A stretch of DNA of 64,000 nucleotides from Pollutibacter soli (GTDB lineage: Bacteria; Bacteroidota; Bacteroidia; Chitinophagales; Chitinophagaceae), in assembly GCA_029269725.1 (NCBI GenBank), contig JARJHS010000002.1, positions 310,001 to 374,000 on the forward strand. Direction: 5' to 3'. How positions within the stretch are numbered: position 1 is the stretch's first letter; every line of letters begins with the position of its first letter. This document shows positions 1-8,479 of this stretch, in pieces. The position numbers and the translations under genes are program-made. The notes under the pieces are model-generated. The model searched no databases, was not told where the DNA came from, and worked only from the letters and a program-made list of their open reading frames with translations.

Positions 1-1704
1 GTCTTCCTTTATCAAAAAATATGTTTTTATAAATGATCGAGTAATCATTGTATAAAGAGAATTCCTATAGCTCGGTGTTTTTAGAATCTTAATTGTCACG
101 CATATTACAAATGGAAATTCTAGCCCTTTCACATTGTTTTTATTCGAAAGGAAAATTTGATTAGGCCGTTTCGTTTTTGTTTCATAGGCCTTATTTACAG
201 GCCATGAAAATTTTCTTTGGATACTAACTTCCAACTGATCTGCCAAATCATAGATATACCTGTAGTCGTCCAATAAAATTATTCCGATATCTTCAGGTAA
301 TACAGTCTCGTTTTCCTTCACGATGTGAGATAGTATGTCAATTATGTGCGAATCGAGATTATTTTTTGCTTCGATTATTTCGATGCTATCAAAGTCATCA
401 TCAATATCTTCAAATCTTCTCAATGGTTCACGACTAAGGTGAAGCTTTTTTCTAGCATCTACTGACACATTATAACCGCAGGCTATCCACTCATTTTCAT
501 CCAACCAGCGTAATTTCTCTTTTTCAAATAATCCCATTCCCAAGGCATGGCCGAACATTAGAGTCTTCGGATCAGTTCTATAACATTTGCCTAGGAGATA
601 GTCTGGTTTTATAGTGTGTGCTAATTTAGCTTGATCAAAAATACTTTGAAAGATGTCGCCAGCTATGTATACATTCTTCTCAGTTACAAATTCGCAAAGC
701 TTAAAAAAATTTTCATCAAAATCTTGACTCTCGTCTATTATTATATAACTAAAGGCATACTCTGGAGAATCATCTATGTACTTTTCTTGCAAGTCTTTTA
801 ATGCCAACTCACACGCCTTACTGAAACTCATGACGGAAGAATATCTGTAAAACGGAATACTATAAAAATGGCAGATATAAGAATAGACGCCGGAATGATA
901 ATAGCTACCTGAACCCCATGCATTCCTACACCAAAATCTTTTTTCCCAATCAATCTGCTGTTCAACTTTCATGAAGTTGAAGAAAGAAGGAATTCTTTGT
1001 CTAAGATTGTCCGAGAGCACCTTATTATGGCAAGTAAAGAATATTTTCGATTCTTGATTTTGGATGTATAGGTCCTTCAATTTATGTAATAGAAGTTCAG
1101 TTTTCCCTGTTCCGGAGAGCCCTTGAATTGTTACACGTTTTGAGTGTGGGACCTGATAGACAAATCTTGTTTGGTCGCCATCGAATAGTTGAATTTTCTG
1201 TTTGACTTTATCAAGTACAGTTTCAGGCACTTCGTCTTTTACTCGATCAACGTCATTAATACTTCCAATTAAGAGAGAGATTAGCAGGTCTACTTTTTTA
1301 ATTTCAGCCGGATCCTTGAGCTTCACACTTGTAAAAAAATTTGGAATGTCTTCCAATTTTGATGGGTCTTTAATCACTTCAATCAGAACACCTTTCCAAT
1401 TTCTAGGCCGCCCTACAATAGAGCGGTATAAATATTTATCAGATATGGAAGTCAAATCCTCAAGAAAATCTTCAACGTAGTTTTCAAACTTATGCCTGCC
1501 TTGTCCAAAGTCGACAACCGAAATTTTATGTCTAGGAGACAATAAAATTAAAGCGTCTTGGTAGTCGTAGCTATATTTTTGATCTAACGGCCCACTGATA
1601 ACATACACTAATTGCTTTTTAGTTTCTGAATAGATTTCGAGATCTTTTAATAAAGTGTCATCTAGTCCTCCGCTCGAAATCTGCGAAAAAAAATAACTTG
1701 TCAT
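1..1704 (-). CDS. SF1 (UvrD/Rep-type) helicase, C-terminus beyond the window
   Basis: An open frame of 568 codons from an ATG at 1704 runs without a stop to the left edge, so the last part is missing. It reads as a superfamily 1 helicase: Walker A GLSGTGKT at residues 195-202, Walker B IIIDES at 320-325, AGDIFQSIF at 348-356 resembling motif III, NVKGLEF at 524-530 resembling motif V, and TMITRS at 552-557 resembling motif VI. Since motif VI is present, only a short tail is likely lost. The first 185 residues before the Walker A show no domain I recognise. The gene starts 68 bp after the stop of the membrane DUF3883 gene, on the same strand, so the two are probably one operon. It would unwind nucleic acid with ATP; a defence role is inferred from the partner and the mobile location. 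Confidence 0.85.
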   Translation of the reverse strand, partial: MTSYFFSQISSGGLDDTLLKDLEIYSETKKQLVYVISGPLDQKYSYDYQDALILLSPRHKISVVDFGQGRHKFENYVEDFLEDLTSISDKYLYRSIVGRPRNWKGVLIEVIKDPSKLEDIPNFFTSVKLKDPAEIKKVDLLISLLIGSINDVDRVKDEVPETVLDKVKQKIQLFDGDQTRFVYQVPHSKRVTIQGLSGTGKTELLLHKLKDLYIQNQESKIFFTCHNKVLSDNLRQRIPSFFNFMKVEQQIDWEKRFWCRNAWGSGSYYHSGVYSYICHFYSIPFYRYSSVMSFSKACELALKDLQEKYIDDSPEYAFSYIIIDESQDFDENFFKLCEFVTEKNVYIAGDIFQSIFDQAKLAHTIKPDYLLGKCYRTDPKTLMFGHALGMGLFEKEKLRWLDENEWIACGYNVSVDARKKLHLSREPLRRFEDIDDDFDSIEIIEAKNNLDSHIIDILSHIVKENETVLPEDIGIILLDDYRYIYDLADQLEVSIQRKFSWPVNKAYETKTKRPNQIFLSNKNNVKGLEFPFVICVTIKILKTPSYRNSLYTMITRSFIKTYFLIKED

Positions 1705-1772
1705 TGTTTGAATTTAATGCTCGACAAAATAAATATTTTGGTTGGGTACCTAACGTTGACGTATTGCGAAAT

Positions 1773-2903
1773 TTAGTCTAAAGGTGCCGTATCGACCGCT
1801 CCCAAATTATTGATTGGAGTTACTCGAAATAAAGTTGGTTCAAATTTATAAAATGGCTTCAATTGAGTTTCGCAATTGATAAAATAAATTTCTGCCTTTT
1901 GGGTTTCCAAATTAAGATTATATACTCTGTAAATGAAATAGTTTTTTAGTGTATTCATCATTCGAATTTCGGTTTCTGTTAGGTAGAATGGGGCCTGCGA
2001 GCCTTGAGTAGTTGATTTAACCTCAATATACTTGCGTTCTCTATTGTCACAATATGAAAGTATATCGTATCCGAAGGAATCGGATTCCTTCGAAACGTGG
2101 ATAACATTCCGAATTAAATCATTTAAACCTAGTCGAGCCAATCGCTTTACTTCATAATTAAGTACAATCAATTCTCCAATCGCTCCTATTTCCGTTCTAT
2201 TTTTATTTAATTGCTCGAAATCGATTTTTTCTCCAATAATTATATTCTCAACCTCATTACTAATTTTAGTTTGATCATTACCTTTTTCGCCTGATGGTTT
2301 ATCGTATACTTCATTTTGAAAATTACTTTCTAATTTTTTGAAAATTGATTTTTTAATGATGGACAAAGCTTTTGTCTTGGCTTTATTTATACCTCGCCAA
2401 AGCGGTTCTCCTACTTCAGTCGTCGATAAGGAATGTAGTTTTTTTTCTTCGCTGTCTACTCCATTTAAAGAGGTGATTTCTTCTCGATCAGAATCCTGCT
2501 CTTTAAAATCAATTTGTGGAAAACTTTCACTGGCTAAATTGCTTCTGAATTCATAACCGTTCTTAAGATTACTAATTTTAAGATGGATAGCTTTTTTCGC
2601 ATTTTCATGGTCGAGAATCTCGAGCCATGTTTTCGGGTTGAGTTTATAATATCCTATCAAGAATTTTTCCACAAGCTCTCCCAAATAAATTCCTATCAGT
2701 GAACCATATACTAATGCTATGAAGGCCCATAAAGCTTTACTATCGGTTTCGACCAGAAAGAAAGTAAGCGTTGCTGAAGAAATACCACTAATTAGAAAAC
2801 AAATCAGAAAAGAATTGTGTAGGATTTTCAGTTGTTTCTTTAGTTTGCTAATTTGAAAGTCCTTTTCTTCTAATTTTTTCAACTGAAGTATTAAGTCTTC
2901 CAT
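1773..2903 (-). CDS. Membrane-anchored DUF3883 (PD-(D/E)XK-like) protein
   Basis: The 376-residue protein starts with a charged, probably coiled stretch (residues 1-28), followed by two hydrophobic segments at about 31-52 and 58-76, so the bulk is probably cytoplasmic. Residues 110-235 are polar, low in order and rich in Glu, Lys and Ser. The C-terminal part (about 236-345) matches the DUF3883 family: GE at 243-244, GYD at 278-280 and IEVKST at 293-298. This order fits a PD-(D/E)XK nuclease fold with D280, E294 and K296 as the likely active site. DUF3883 proteins are often found in defence islands. The next gene is an SF1 helicase in the same orientation. Nuclease activity is inferred from motif only. 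Confidence 0.75.
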   Translation of the reverse strand: MEDLILQLKKLEEKDFQISKLKKQLKILHNSFLICFLISGISSATLTFFLVETDSKALWAFIALVYGSLIGIYLGELVEKFLIGYYKLNPKTWLEILDHENAKKAIHLKISNLKNGYEFRSNLASESFPQIDFKEQDSDREEITSLNGVDSEEKKLHSLSTTEVGEPLWRGINKAKTKALSIIKKSIFKKLESNFQNEVYDKPSGEKGNDQTKISNEVENIIIGEKIDFEQLNKNRTEIGAIGELIVLNYEVKRLARLGLNDLIRNVIHVSKESDSFGYDILSYCDNRERKYIEVKSTTQGSQAPFYLTETEIRMMNTLKNYFIYRVYNLNLETQKAEIYFINCETQLKPFYKFEPTLFRVTPINNLGAVDTAPLD

Positions 2904-2962
2904 TTACATTAAACTTTAATAAACCAGCTGAATGTACAAAATCCGCCTTAAATACAATAAAA

Positions 2963-2984
2963 GGCCGGCATTCATCTGCCGGCC
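2963..2984 (-). terminator. Rho-independent terminator after the element's core operon
   Basis: GGCCGGCA and TGCCGGCC form a perfect 8-bp stem with a 6-base loop; on the minus strand it is followed by TTTTATTG. It lies between the 3' end of the gene at 3098-3547 and the start of the DUF3883 gene, so it separates the replication block from the cargo pair, which should therefore have its own promoter. Confidence 0.7.
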
Positions 2985-3097
2985 CCGTTTGAATCAAACC
3001 AATTAATTGTTGAATCCAAAGATAAGATTACCCGAATAGAAAAGAGCGTTGAAAACGCCGGTGTTTTGCCGTTTTTTTCTCGCTGAAATTGGGAAAA

Positions 3098-3547
3098 TCA
3101 CCGTTTCCTCTTCAATAAAAAGTCGTATCTGCCATTAATTAAGTCGCACATTGAAATATCCAGTCCATTTTGGATTTTCAAAAACCTTTTTGTTGGCTTA
3201 CCTCTATAGTGCGTTCTGAACTTTTTTGTACCAAATTGTCGTTCTGCTTTCATCCTCACTTCAAGCCTACGCAATAACTTGTCTAAGGGTGAACCTGTTA
3301 TCCAAGGTTTTCTTTCGTACTTCGGGATAATAAATTCTTCTTGGCAAAAATATAGCTTATGCTTCCTCTTCTTTGTAATCGGACAAATAAAAAACCATCG
3401 AACCCCTCCGGGATTACCGCCAATTTTTTCGCAAATCATTTCAACTCTGGGAAGCGAATTAATGAGTACAAAAATTCGTTTTTTGTCGTCCCTTGATTCA
3501 ATATTGAGTTCTCGCCGAATTGTCGAAGCCTTTATTACCCCTTCCAT
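3098..3547 (-). CDS. Conserved hypothetical protein of a mobile element
   Basis: The 149-residue basic protein has ATG at 3547, only 5 bp after the stop of the DUF6371 gene, so it is co-transcribed with the replication block. The central part reads RWFFICPITKKRKHKLYF, a pattern (aromatic run, CP, basic residues, LY) I associate with short proteins of unknown function in phages and integrative elements. Only a few cysteines are present, so a full zinc ribbon is not evident. The protein is rich in Lys and Arg at both ends of the C-terminal half, which would suit nucleic acid binding. No function can be assigned. Confidence 0.6.
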   Translation of the reverse strand: MEGVIKASTIRRELNIESRDDKKRIFVLINSLPRVEMICEKIGGNPGGVRWFFICPITKKRKHKLYFCQEEFIIPKYERKPWITGSPLDKLLRRLEVRMKAERQFGTKKFRTHYRGKPTKRFLKIQNGLDISMCDLINGRYDFLLKRKR

Positions 3548-3552
3548 ATATC

Positions 3553-4245
3553 CTAAAATTTATCAGCATACCATATTGCTTGTGGTAAAAATGCCTTTAC
3601 TCTTTCGATGTTCTTTTGAGAATGATTGGTAATTGCCAGCCATAAATATTCCGGGTACTCTATACTGCAAATGACAGCCGACCTACAATCATTAACAATA
3701 ACACATTTCTTTTCAGGGTATGACTTAAGTAAATGTTCCCCATACAAATGGTTGTGTTCGTCCCGCTCATAACTTAACCGATCTTGCATGAATACTTTTT
3801 TTTGACTAGATTGATCTGCCTCGCCCGTTAATGGGTCAATACTGATTATTAGACCTCCAATAACATTCATCAACTTGTCAATTTGCCAAAAAATTGTGGC
3901 AGCTTTTTCCTTCGCGCGTCCGAGGAAATACATTTTACGCACCCTCTCCATTTCAAATTGTCCATACTTCTTAACTAGATAGGCAAGAAAGCCGTTTTGA
4001 TTTTCCAAAGGCTGATTCGGACTTATCAACATTGCTTTTTCCATAATCGAAAAAGGTATTCCCTTTTCAAGGGTTCTTTTATAGTCTTCAGTTGAAAATT
4101 CATAACTACATTCAGGTAAAATGCACCTGCCAATTTTATCGCTAAAAAGCATTTTAATAATTGGTTTGAAGTTTTGATAAGAGGTTTTACCACATTTAGG
4201 ACATATTGCCAATATTGGAAGATTGATTGTTTTTTGTAAAATCAT
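3553..4245 (-). CDS. DUF6371-like, Toprim-related zinc-ribbon protein with altered acidic motif
   Basis: The 230-residue protein has a CPKC at residues 15-18 and further cysteines at 41 and 46, forming an N-terminal zinc ribbon like that of primases. The C-terminal part resembles the DUF6371 family of Bacteroidota mobile elements: a YGEHLLKSYPEKK segment followed by the strand that in relatives reads V-E-S-E-K-T-A. Here that strand reads VNDCRSA (184-190), so both Toprim-type acidic residues are replaced. The protein is also shorter than the relatives I recall. It sits just downstream of the D5-type helicase and probably takes part in element replication, either as a non-catalytic accessory or as a decayed primase. 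Confidence 0.6.
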   Translation of the reverse strand: MILQKTINLPILAICPKCGKTSYQNFKPIIKMLFSDKIGRCILPECSYEFSTEDYKRTLEKGIPFSIMEKAMLISPNQPLENQNGFLAYLVKKYGQFEMERVRKMYFLGRAKEKAATIFWQIDKLMNVIGGLIISIDPLTGEADQSSQKKVFMQDRLSYERDEHNHLYGEHLLKSYPEKKCVIVNDCRSAVICSIEYPEYLWLAITNHSQKNIERVKAFLPQAIWYADKF

Positions 4246-6348: not shown

Positions 6349-7554
6349 CTAATTTTTAAAAGCAGTAAGCGCGTCCGTAGTCTCATGAATCGCCTTCTCT
6401 TCGAATCCAGCAAGGTAGCTTTTTGTTGTCTTCAGATCGCTGTGACCTAAAGCGTCGCTGATGAATTCCGTAGGAGCACCGGAACGCTTCAAAATAGTTG
6501 CGAAGCTGTGACGAGCAAAATAAGTGGTAACATTTTTTTCAATTCCCAACTTGTCGGCAATCCGTTTCATGTACTTATTAATCAGGCGCGTGACCAGTTG
6601 AATTGTGTTACGCTGTTGCTCAGCAGTCATACCCTTTTTAAGATGTGGGAAAATAAAGCTGCCGGGGTCGACAGATGGTATGCCATGTTTTAACACAATG
6701 GCCTTGGCTTCAGGCTTAAATGATACAGTAATTTTTTCAGCTGCTTTTTTGCTCCTTTTAGTTTTAGCTCTCTCAAAAGTTAGTATATCCCCGGCGATAT
6801 CTTTTCGTTTTAATAAACATAGGTCTTTTACGTTTAAACCATTACACAGATAACTGAATATCCAATAGTCCTTCGCCATTTCTTCGCTGGTATTGGTAGA
6901 CGCGGGATATTCAAAAATTCTTCCGATTTCTTCGATCGTTAAAGCCTTTTTGATATTCCGTCCAGAGGGAATGGTAAAATCTTTGAAAGGGTAAATACTT
7001 TTATCAATCTTAGCTCGGTTAAAAATGGCCCGCAAGCTTCTTAAATATATTCCTGTTGTTGTCTGGCTCTTCCCATTTTTACTCATCCACTCTACATACT
7101 TCGACAATATTGCTTTCGTAACATCGACATATTTCAGCCCGGGTTTGAAAGATTCGAAATTATTTCTTGCGCATTCATAAGAAACTGCTGTCCCGATTCT
7201 GTCTTCATTCTTCAATTCGGCAATGTATCGATCGAATCCCGCTTTTATACTGTCTGCCGCTTCCCGGTTTTGCAAAAAACTTTCTTCGAACCTCGAAAAA
7301 GTGAAAATGCCGATGCTATCAATACACTGATTGGCCTTCGTCTCAAAAGCTAAAATTCGATTGTACATCGCTTTTTCAGAGTCGTTTCTTCTCTTTGCAT
7401 TAAATAAACGCCTGAAATCGTCTGACAGCAAACTTATCCCCGTTGGGTAGTACTTCTTTTTTCGTTGATAAGTTACTCTTATCGTAACGGAGCATTTACC
7501 GTCTTTCTGAGGATGATATTCATTAATAAATGCTTTCGCTGTTGCTGTTGCCAT
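6349..7554 (-). CDS. Tyrosine recombinase (site-specific integrase), Bacteroidota type
   Basis: About 401 residues from the ATG at 7554; a GTG eight codons upstream is also possible, but the family usually begins at MATATxKAF. It has the Arm-DNA-binding domain (YQRKKKYYPTG), a SAM-like core-binding domain and a catalytic domain. Catalytic residues visible are R348 in ARHSFAT, H371 in GHS and the nucleophile Y380 in KSYLAGF. The first catalytic Arg box reads YLCNGLNVKDL, with Asn where many integrases have Arg, as is common in Bacteroidota integrases. The gene lies next to a tRNA-Asn 3' fragment and should catalyse integration there. Confidence 0.9.
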   Translation of the reverse strand: MATATAKAFINEYHPQKDGKCSVTIRVTYQRKKKYYPTGISLLSDDFRRLFNAKRRNDSEKAMYNRILAFETKANQCIDSIGIFTFSRFEESFLQNREAADSIKAGFDRYIAELKNEDRIGTAVSYECARNNFESFKPGLKYVDVTKAILSKYVEWMSKNGKSQTTTGIYLRSLRAIFNRAKIDKSIYPFKDFTIPSGRNIKKALTIEEIGRIFEYPASTNTSEEMAKDYWIFSYLCNGLNVKDLCLLKRKDIAGDILTFERAKTKRSKKAAEKITVSFKPEAKAIVLKHGIPSVDPGSFIFPHLKKGMTAEQQRNTIQLVTRLINKYMKRIADKLGIEKNVTTYFARHSFATILKRSGAPTEFISDALGHSDLKTTKSYLAGFEEKAIHETTDALTAFKN

Positions 7555-7716
7555 AATAGGGTACTTTGATTGCGACACATTCGCGACACAAAATAGGAAA
7601 GAATCGAGAAAAAAGCGAAGAAATAAAAAATGAAATATTCACATGAAATCCATGCCTGCCTTGAGTTGTAGCCGTTTATTACATCGTTATTATTTGTTTG
7701 TTTGTATAGGTGAATA

Positions 7717-7763
7717 TGACTGTTAATCAGAGGGTCACTGGTTCAAGTCCAGTCTGAGGAGCA
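7717..7763 (+). pseudogene. tRNA-Asn(GTT) 3' fragment A, probable att site
   Basis: From TGACTGTTAATCA onward the sequence follows a tRNA-Asn: anticodon loop CTGTTAA with anticodon GTT, variable loop, T arm ACTGG-TTCAAGT-CCAGT and the 3' acceptor strand CTGAGGAGC. The acceptor 5' strand and D arm are absent; the upstream bases do not fit. The break lies in the anticodon stem, a common crossover point for tyrosine integrases. This is probably one attachment site of the adjacent element. Confidence 0.75.
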
Positions 7764-7796: not shown

Positions 7797-8090
7797 ATGA
7801 ACTGGCAGGTTTATATACTTTATTCTCCAAAGCTGGATCGATATTATACGGGTTGTACATCCGACCTTGATTTAAGAATAGAAAAACATAGAAATCATTT
7901 TTTCGGCAATACAGTATTTACGACTAAAGCTGAGGACTGGGAAATTTTTTTGACAATGATATGCAACGGGGAAAAGCAGGCAAAGTCAGTAGAGCTCCAT
8001 ATCAAAAAAATGAAGAGCAAAAAGTACATTGAAAATTTGAAGGCATTTCCGGAGATGGTTGAAAAACTATTGACCCGATATGTGATCTGA
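7797..8090 (+). CDS. GIY-YIG nuclease family protein, copy 1
   Basis: A 97-residue protein made almost only of a GIY-YIG fold: WQVYILYS and DRYYTGCTSDLDLRIEKH are the two core strands and the Arg helix, and the catalytic Glu is probably in KSVELHIKK. Short stand-alone proteins of this type are frequent in Bacteroidota; some may act as homing-type nucleases. The last residues (KLLTRYVI) differ from copy 2 (ENCFLLSK) because the gene is cut by the repeat junction: its stop TGA is the first triplet of the next tRNA fragment. Whether it is active is unknown. Confidence 0.75.
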   Translation: MNWQVYILYSPKLDRYYTGCTSDLDLRIEKHRNHFFGNTVFTTKAEDWEIFLTMICNGEKQAKSVELHIKKMKSKKYIENLKAFPEMVEKLLTRYVI

Positions 8091-8179: not shown

Positions 8180-8479
8180 ATGAACTGGCAGGTTTATATA
8201 CTTTATTCTCCAAAGCTGGATCGATATTATACGGGTTGTACATCCGACCTTGATTTAAGAATAGAAAAACATAGAAATCATTTTTTCGGCAATACAGTAT
8301 TTACGACTAAAGCTGACGACTGGGAAATTTTTTTGACAATGATATGCAACGGGGGCAACGGGGAAAAGCAGGCAAAGTCAGTTGAGCTCCATATCAAAAA
8401 AATGAAGAGCAAAAAGTACATTGAAAATTTGAAGGCATTTCCGGAGATGGTTGAAAATTGCTTCTTACTCAGCAAGTGA
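8180..8479 (+). CDS. GIY-YIG nuclease family protein, copy 2
   Basis: A 99-residue near-identical twin of the protein at 7797-8090, with the same start MNWQVYILYS, one E-to-D change, an extra Gly-Asn-Gly from a 9-bp tandem duplication and a different C-terminus (ENCFLLSK). The GIY-YIG core residues are kept. The 9-bp insertion is in frame and the frame is intact, so function may be retained. The 180 bp that follow, up to the convergent phosphoesterase gene, hold nothing I recognise. Confidence 0.75.
   Translation: MNWQVYILYSPKLDRYYTGCTSDLDLRIEKHRNHFFGNTVFTTKADDWEIFLTMICNGGNGEKQAKSVELHIKKMKSKKYIENLKAFPEMVENCFLLSK

Follow-up and report, generated by a model that had tools for sequence, protein, structure and literature searches.

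The cargo of the tRNA-Asn element of Pollutibacter soli described here is best explained as three separate modules, namely a putative membrane DUF3883 nuclease, an SF1 helicase together with a small STM2766-family protein, and an HNH_2 protein. Overall, we consider it probable that this three-module arrangement is right and that the helicase and the STM2766 protein are a sister pair of the Helicase+DUF2290 system, working through a motor and an effector. The DNA analyzed, referred to as the window, is a stretch of 64,000 nucleotides (C12:310001-374000) from a genome of 6.1 Mb, and its first position falls inside the helicase gene. The original prediction, which was made on the window, had joined the helicase and the membrane protein into a two-gene antiphage system. 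This two-gene system is a truncated view of a four-gene cargo, made by the window edge.

The element and its cargo

The element extends over C12:307946-317762, which is 9817 bp including both repeats, and has the following features (positions are those of the window unless C12 is given).

C12:307946-307991: one copy of the 46-bp repeat, at the tRNA-Asn gene itself, upstream of the window
C12:308097-308996 (L003:15098-15997), minus strand: HNH_2 gene, 299 aa, HNH_2 46.3 bits, last in the cargo row, outside the window
C12:309040-309699, minus strand: STM2766-family gene, 219 aa, outside the window
C12:309692-311704, minus strand: full-length helicase, 670 aa, ending outside the window
1-1704, minus strand: SF1 helicase of the STM2767 family (NF053713), an ORF that runs off the window after its first 568 aa
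1773-2903, minus strand: TM-DUF3883 protein, 376 aa, with two N-terminal membrane helices, a linker and a C-terminal NOV_C domain
2961-2986, minus strand: hairpin resembling a terminator, upstream of the cargo, with a 10-pair stem of which 7 are G-C
3098-3547, minus strand: 149-aa element gene, for which Pfam, PADLOC and PHROGs gave no family
3553-4245, minus strand: DUF6371 element gene, 95.6 bits
4345-5760, minus strand: D5_N/DUF5906 primase-helicase (Pfam), matching the DNA primase phrog_864 with 310 bits
5757-6086, minus strand: HTH_17 excisionase-like protein (Pfam; phrog_66)
6349-7578, minus strand: tyrosine integrase (Phage_integrase, Phage_int_SAM_5, Arm-DNA-bind_5)
7717-7762: far end of the element, where the 46-bp tRNA-Asn 3′-end recurs exactly as a direct repeat

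The two genes seen in the window are as had been described, with 68 bp between the helicase ORF and the TM-DUF3883 ORF, both on the minus strand. The cargo position in an integrated element is likewise borne out by the 46-bp tRNA-Asn direct repeat and the integrase, and the terminator placed ahead of the membrane gene corresponds to the hairpin at 2986-2961. Terminator-like sites number six on both strands of window positions 1-3300, against 1.8 (sd 1.4) in shuffled sequences. Beyond the window edge, the helicase gene overlaps the start of the 219-aa gene by 8 bp, the HNH_2 gene follows after 43 bp, and the tRNA-Asn gene comes next. The cargo is thereby four genes on one strand with gaps of 68, -8 and 43 bp, and it is likely a defense cargo. 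With such short gaps, the four co-directional genes could form one transcription unit, which leaves room for cooperation between them in this strain.

Two further observations concern this region. The HNH_2 protein is weakly similar to restriction enzymes of phosphorothioated DNA (32.8 bits against a cut-off of 180) and to PADLOC HNH models. Just past the element end lie two near-identical ORFs in tandem, 97 and 99 aa long (7797-8090 and 8180-8479), the sequence of which presumably resembles a GIY-YIG domain.

The partner of the helicase

The helicase scored 881 bits for the NCBIfam STM2767 family (cut-off 550), and UvrD_C_2, AAA_19 and UvrD-helicase were all above their Pfam cut-offs, in agreement with the SF1 identity originally assigned to it. 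The 219-aa protein scored 184.7 bits (cut-off 70) for NF053714, the STM2766 family helicase-associated protein. Thus both proteins exceed the curated cut-offs and we found no difference from these two families, the names of which carry no defense role. In the literature searched, the papers that mention STM2767 have titles on Salmonella typing and population studies, none of them mentions STM2766, and no paper on an STM2766 family helicase-associated protein was found.

With a seven-sequence helicase alignment as query, we scanned GTDB species at one genome each and examined the best 80 of 162 relatives, with flanks of up to 6 kb, several loci being shorter. STM2766 lies directly 3′ of the helicase in 78 of these 80 loci, in most cases overlapping it or no more than about 20 bases away; the count includes L092, where STM2766 is split into two ORFs, and the two loci lacking it (L109 and L129) are cut short by the end of the contig. 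In IMG/VR we found 19 helicase loci, and all 16 of the close ones have STM2766, with splits of STM2766 in L225 and of the helicase itself in L226 and L231; a match to the STM2766 profile was sought and not found at the three remote helicases. Seven further neighborhoods (L035-L041) have the helicase followed by STM2766 in six cases, and only an N-terminal fragment of the helicase in L041. Pairs occur on plasmids as well as in the viral-contig collection, and record titles for the best 80 of 162 relatives place the STM2766 branch in Bacteroidota, proteobacteria, Bacillota and a cyanobacterium. That helicase and STM2766 are a pair is, in our judgment, nearly certain. No third conserved partner was found around them, the largest cluster of neighbors reaching 7 of 86 loci.

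The fragment in L041 (5061-5471, on a Parabacteroides plasmid) is a 136-aa ORF that matches helicase residues 2-147 only, with 35% identity, and lies two genes ahead of a row with a SMEK-domain protein. It may be a stand-alone domain or a remnant.

In the stretches examined, a NOV_C/DUF3883 gene was found near the helicase in none of the 80 loci (best 80 of 162), both with a two-row profile at E ≤ 0.001 and with a 36-row profile at E ≤ 0.01. When applied to 12 control loci defined by Pfam, the two-row profile recovered 6 and the 36-row profile 11 of these independently found loci, and for this reason the 36-row count is the one to rely on. The recovery of 34 out of 34 loci by the 36-row profile is circular, since the same query had served to find them. 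Conversely, neither an STM2767 helicase nor an STM2766 gene was present in any of 25 DUF3883 loci from other genomes. The original prediction had itself tied the pairing to the two genes being neighbors in related genomes; in the loci examined they are not, and the pairing is therefore largely refuted, the near-invariant partner of the helicase being STM2766 instead.

It is thus very improbable that the membrane protein and the helicase make up one membrane-tethered nuclease-helicase defense system. Their spacing of 68 bp on one strand, the defense-type matches obtained for both and their common element cargo would fit such a system, but the counts in both directions led us to reject it, and two other copies of the membrane protein lack the helicase: the copy on contig C33 of the same genome, where a family search of the genome gave no STM2767 helicase on that contig, and the copy in L156, where none is present in a 6.2-kb stretch ending 0.7 kb past the TM-DUF3883 gene. 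The search of the genome gave matches on C12 and, weakly, on C35 only.

Alternatively, the four cargo genes could be one composite system in this lineage, in which the DUF3883 and HNH proteins serve as accessory effectors of the pair. The short gaps on a single strand are consistent with this, as is the number of promoter-like sites in window positions 1-3300, which is no higher than in shuffled sequences (9 versus 11.9). Against it, neither accessory gene recurs beside the helicase: the NOV_C count is zero, and a blastp search (1e-6) gave a single HNH relative, in L106, with 28% identity over 100 residues (1 of the best 80 of 162). We find the composite system improbable, and favor the separation into three modules, of which the HNH_2 protein is probably a restriction-type one.

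The membrane DUF3883 protein

Much of what had been said of the membrane protein stands. Its two N-terminal helices correspond to hydrophobic segments at residues 33-51 and 57-75, and NOV_C/DUF3883 (PF13020) covers residues 243-334 with 58 bits, the Pfam cut-off being 22.1. Across the 33 distinct domains obtained from related loci (36 rows in the set), the residues pointed out in the original prediction, D280, E294 and K296, are kept in 32, 32 and 33, and E244 is kept in all 33. An excerpt of one article calls DUF3883 a novel REase domain (PMC3710099), and the domain has the conserved E, D and ExK residues by which the PD-(D/E)XK type is judged. No PDB relative of the domain was found by sequence at E ≤ 1, nor any TM-DUF3883 relative in viral contigs. 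In PADLOC the protein resembles PDC-S36 and PD-T4-1 (99 and 80 bits) through its C-terminal DUF3883 domain. Unlike a full-length match, only the C-terminal parts align (profile positions 127-277 of 280 and 218-361 of 383) and the two-TM N-terminus does not; a literature search for PDC-S36 found no paper.

Among 27 DUF3883 proteins checked, comprising 25 from other loci (20 + 5) and two of this genome, two N-terminal helices were found in three: that of the window, the second copy in this genome (L004:7423-8490, on C33) and that of L156. The C33 copy is 31% identical to the window protein and is cargo of a tRNA-Val element (L004:1539 to 12456, with a 45-bp tRNA-Val repeat) that has an integrase, an RteC match just over the cut-off, and primase and DUF5906 genes. 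Here the TM-DUF3883 gene adjoins matches to OloB and OloA of Olokun (358 and 114 bits), and a 222-aa gene for which we found no family match lies 53 bp before it. As the three contexts have three different sets of neighbors, TM-DUF3883 is most simply a single-gene unit. Its most likely role is that of a self-standing membrane-tethered nuclease, which is predicted to cleave DNA there on its own. We lean slightly towards the view that it is a stand-alone defense nuclease, independent of the helicase.

The original prediction of an antiphage pair survives in part: the likely defense cargo and the PD-(D/E)XK-type motif of the membrane protein remain, whereas the pairing of TM-DUF3883 with the helicase does not (0 of the best 80 of 162). 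The proposed search with PADLOC models gave a match of the helicase to PDLC03002 (E = 1.5e-26), which supports its homology to the helicase of the Helicase+DUF2290 system, and, for the membrane protein, C-terminal matches but none at full length.

Helicase, STM2766 and the Helicase+DUF2290 system

The original prediction had not recognized the system as any described type. In fact, NCBIfam has families for both the helicase and its actual partner, and at profile level the two are related to the published Helicase+DUF2290 system, of which an excerpt of the original article states that a helicase and a DUF2290 protein from P4-like satellites specifically inhibit T7 (Rousset et al., 2022; PMC9122126). 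The two systems are alike in having a UvrD-type SF1 helicase gene followed directly by a small gene, in the same order, and in being found on mobile elements. By hhalign, the helicase aligned to the Helicase+DUF2290 helicases with 100% probability (E = 1.2e-44, 562 columns), and STM2766 aligned to DUF2290 with 92.8% (E = 4.1e-07), the DUF2290 side having six rows and the 51 columns spanning an RYD...HPxxH motif common to both proteins. In contrast, the helicase alignment is 20% identical, only those 51 columns of the small protein align, and STM2766 of the window strain scored 19.1 bits for PF10053, under the cut-off of 25. DUF2290 was matched at E ≤ 0.01 by 8 (Pfam) or 9 (PADLOC) of 71 STM2766 relatives. 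PF10053 itself was present in 6 of 296 genomes of the phylum, in all six after a helicase detected by the STM2767 model and within about 170 bp of it. Because STM2766 is under the DUF2290 cut-off, the pair is not a member of Helicase+DUF2290 by the curated test, and we classify it, on these profile comparisons, as a sister variant.

The nuclease-helicase systems brought up in the original prediction were also compared, and both were rejected on account of the partner and the models. The likeness to Gabija lies in a UvrD-like helicase of SF1 that has a partner gene, with weak GajB matches (best 5e-06; full protein 1.1e-05). It differs in that the partner is STM2766, and the cargo proteins matched neither a GajA model nor an OLD-type Pfam family. 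For Hachiman, neither HamA nor HamB was among the models that the cargo proteins matched in PADLOC at E ≤ 1.

SF1 helicases commonly act in repair. A module for DNA repair or element maintenance, rather than defense, could thus be made up of the helicase and STM2766, and their presence on plasmids and viral contigs would agree with this. We consider such a module unlikely, as the pair is a sister of a system tested as antiphage, occurs sporadically (of 395 genomes in the phylum, two exceed the cut-off, one being this genome) and has restriction genes among its neighbors. The association of the neighbors with defense is suggestive only: a PADLOC scan covering 97 of 146 listed first neighbors matched restriction-type families in two to three proteins each, a tally in which distinct proteins are uncounted and which has no control. 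By analogy with Helicase+DUF2290, an antiphage role of the helicase and STM2766 appears quite probable to us.

An AlphaFold2 model of the helicase has a mean pLDDT of 90.1 over 567 residues. K201, D324 and E325 do not vary across the 81 rows, and we assign K201 to the Walker A motif and D324/E325 to the Walker B motif. A nuclease in the N-terminus was considered and rejected, as the strands at 51-55 and 61-65 have no ExK motif and D50 is shared by 17 of the 81 rows. Alignment A5 held 56 relatives and the window protein, the remaining relatives being added for the final counts; A8 and A9 include L007, which was placed by position and look and not by the Pfam test, as was L011 in A8, and L176 was left out of A9.

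A Foldseek search of the PDB with the helicase model gave human SLFN11 and SLFN14 at the top (best 2.9e-16, TM 0.41), ahead of UPF1 and UvrD. As the matches at E ≤ 0.001 number 502 chains, of which the best 50 are mostly other helicases, the Schlafen likeness of the model is a lead only.

STM2766 has 11 invariant columns in 71 aligned homologs. The alignment covers 71 of the 77 full-length proteins; L074, L075, L117, L122, L132 and L133 were added back afterwards, and P76 is lost in two of these six. The remaining ten residues are identical in all 77 and all are kept in the window strain (R59, Y146, R148, D152, H161, P162, H165, D167, K177 and G179 in its numbering, where P74 and D150 are each kept in 75 of 77). 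In an AlphaFold2 model of the relative L056 (pLDDT 93.6, pTM 0.90), most of the invariant residues fall within a run of three C-terminal strands (148-153, 166-171 and 177-182), either on a strand or between two. Foldseek gave nothing at E ≤ 0.001 against PDB and BFVD, which is no proof of a new fold, and by sequence no PDB relative was found, the sole match having E = 0.65. Resemblance to the TumE toxin (PF20126), whose RYD...H looks alike by eye, was rejected after a profile comparison with a two-row TumE alignment gave 0.4% for STM2766 and 0.3% for DUF2290.

From the invariant residues we infer that R, D, H, H, D and K form an active site, and we tentatively regard STM2766 as a catalytic effector. 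As no nuclease fold was found, it is from the conserved residues by themselves that catalysis is argued. Alternatively, STM2766 could be a non-enzymatic adaptor, binding a target and tethering the helicase to it, with the helicase itself blocking replication. The lack of a recognizable fold at E ≤ 0.001 would suit an adaptor, and the weak top Foldseek matches include many sliding clamps, none of them significant; on the other hand, most invariant residues, many of them charged, sit on or between three C-terminal strands, as they would in an active site. We regard the adaptor as somewhat unlikely.

We suggest that the SF1 motor, with its N-terminal domain lacking the ExK nuclease motif, would load on phage DNA or replication intermediates, and that the helicase, as the presumed sensor, would then engage or release the small STM2766 effector. 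The R, D, H, H, D, K site could cleave nucleic acids or nucleotides, and this action would stop phage replication and defend this host. We base this proposal on gene order, near-universal pairing, the profile-level relation to Helicase+DUF2290 and the invariant residues. It is conceivable, if rather doubtful, that STM2766 and DUF2290 belong to one superfamily of phage-defense effectors, switched on by SF1 helicases with no nuclease motif in their N-terminal domain, and with a catalytic fold absent among solved structures.

In conclusion, the edge of a sequence window can make a false two-gene system, and a widespread STM2767/STM2766 pair is now linked with one that has been tested as antiphage. 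From the invariant residues of STM2766 comes a prediction about the Helicase+DUF2290 effector step that can be tested directly. TM-DUF3883, found twice in one genome on two tRNA-integrated elements, is a separate candidate for membrane-localized DNA cleavage.
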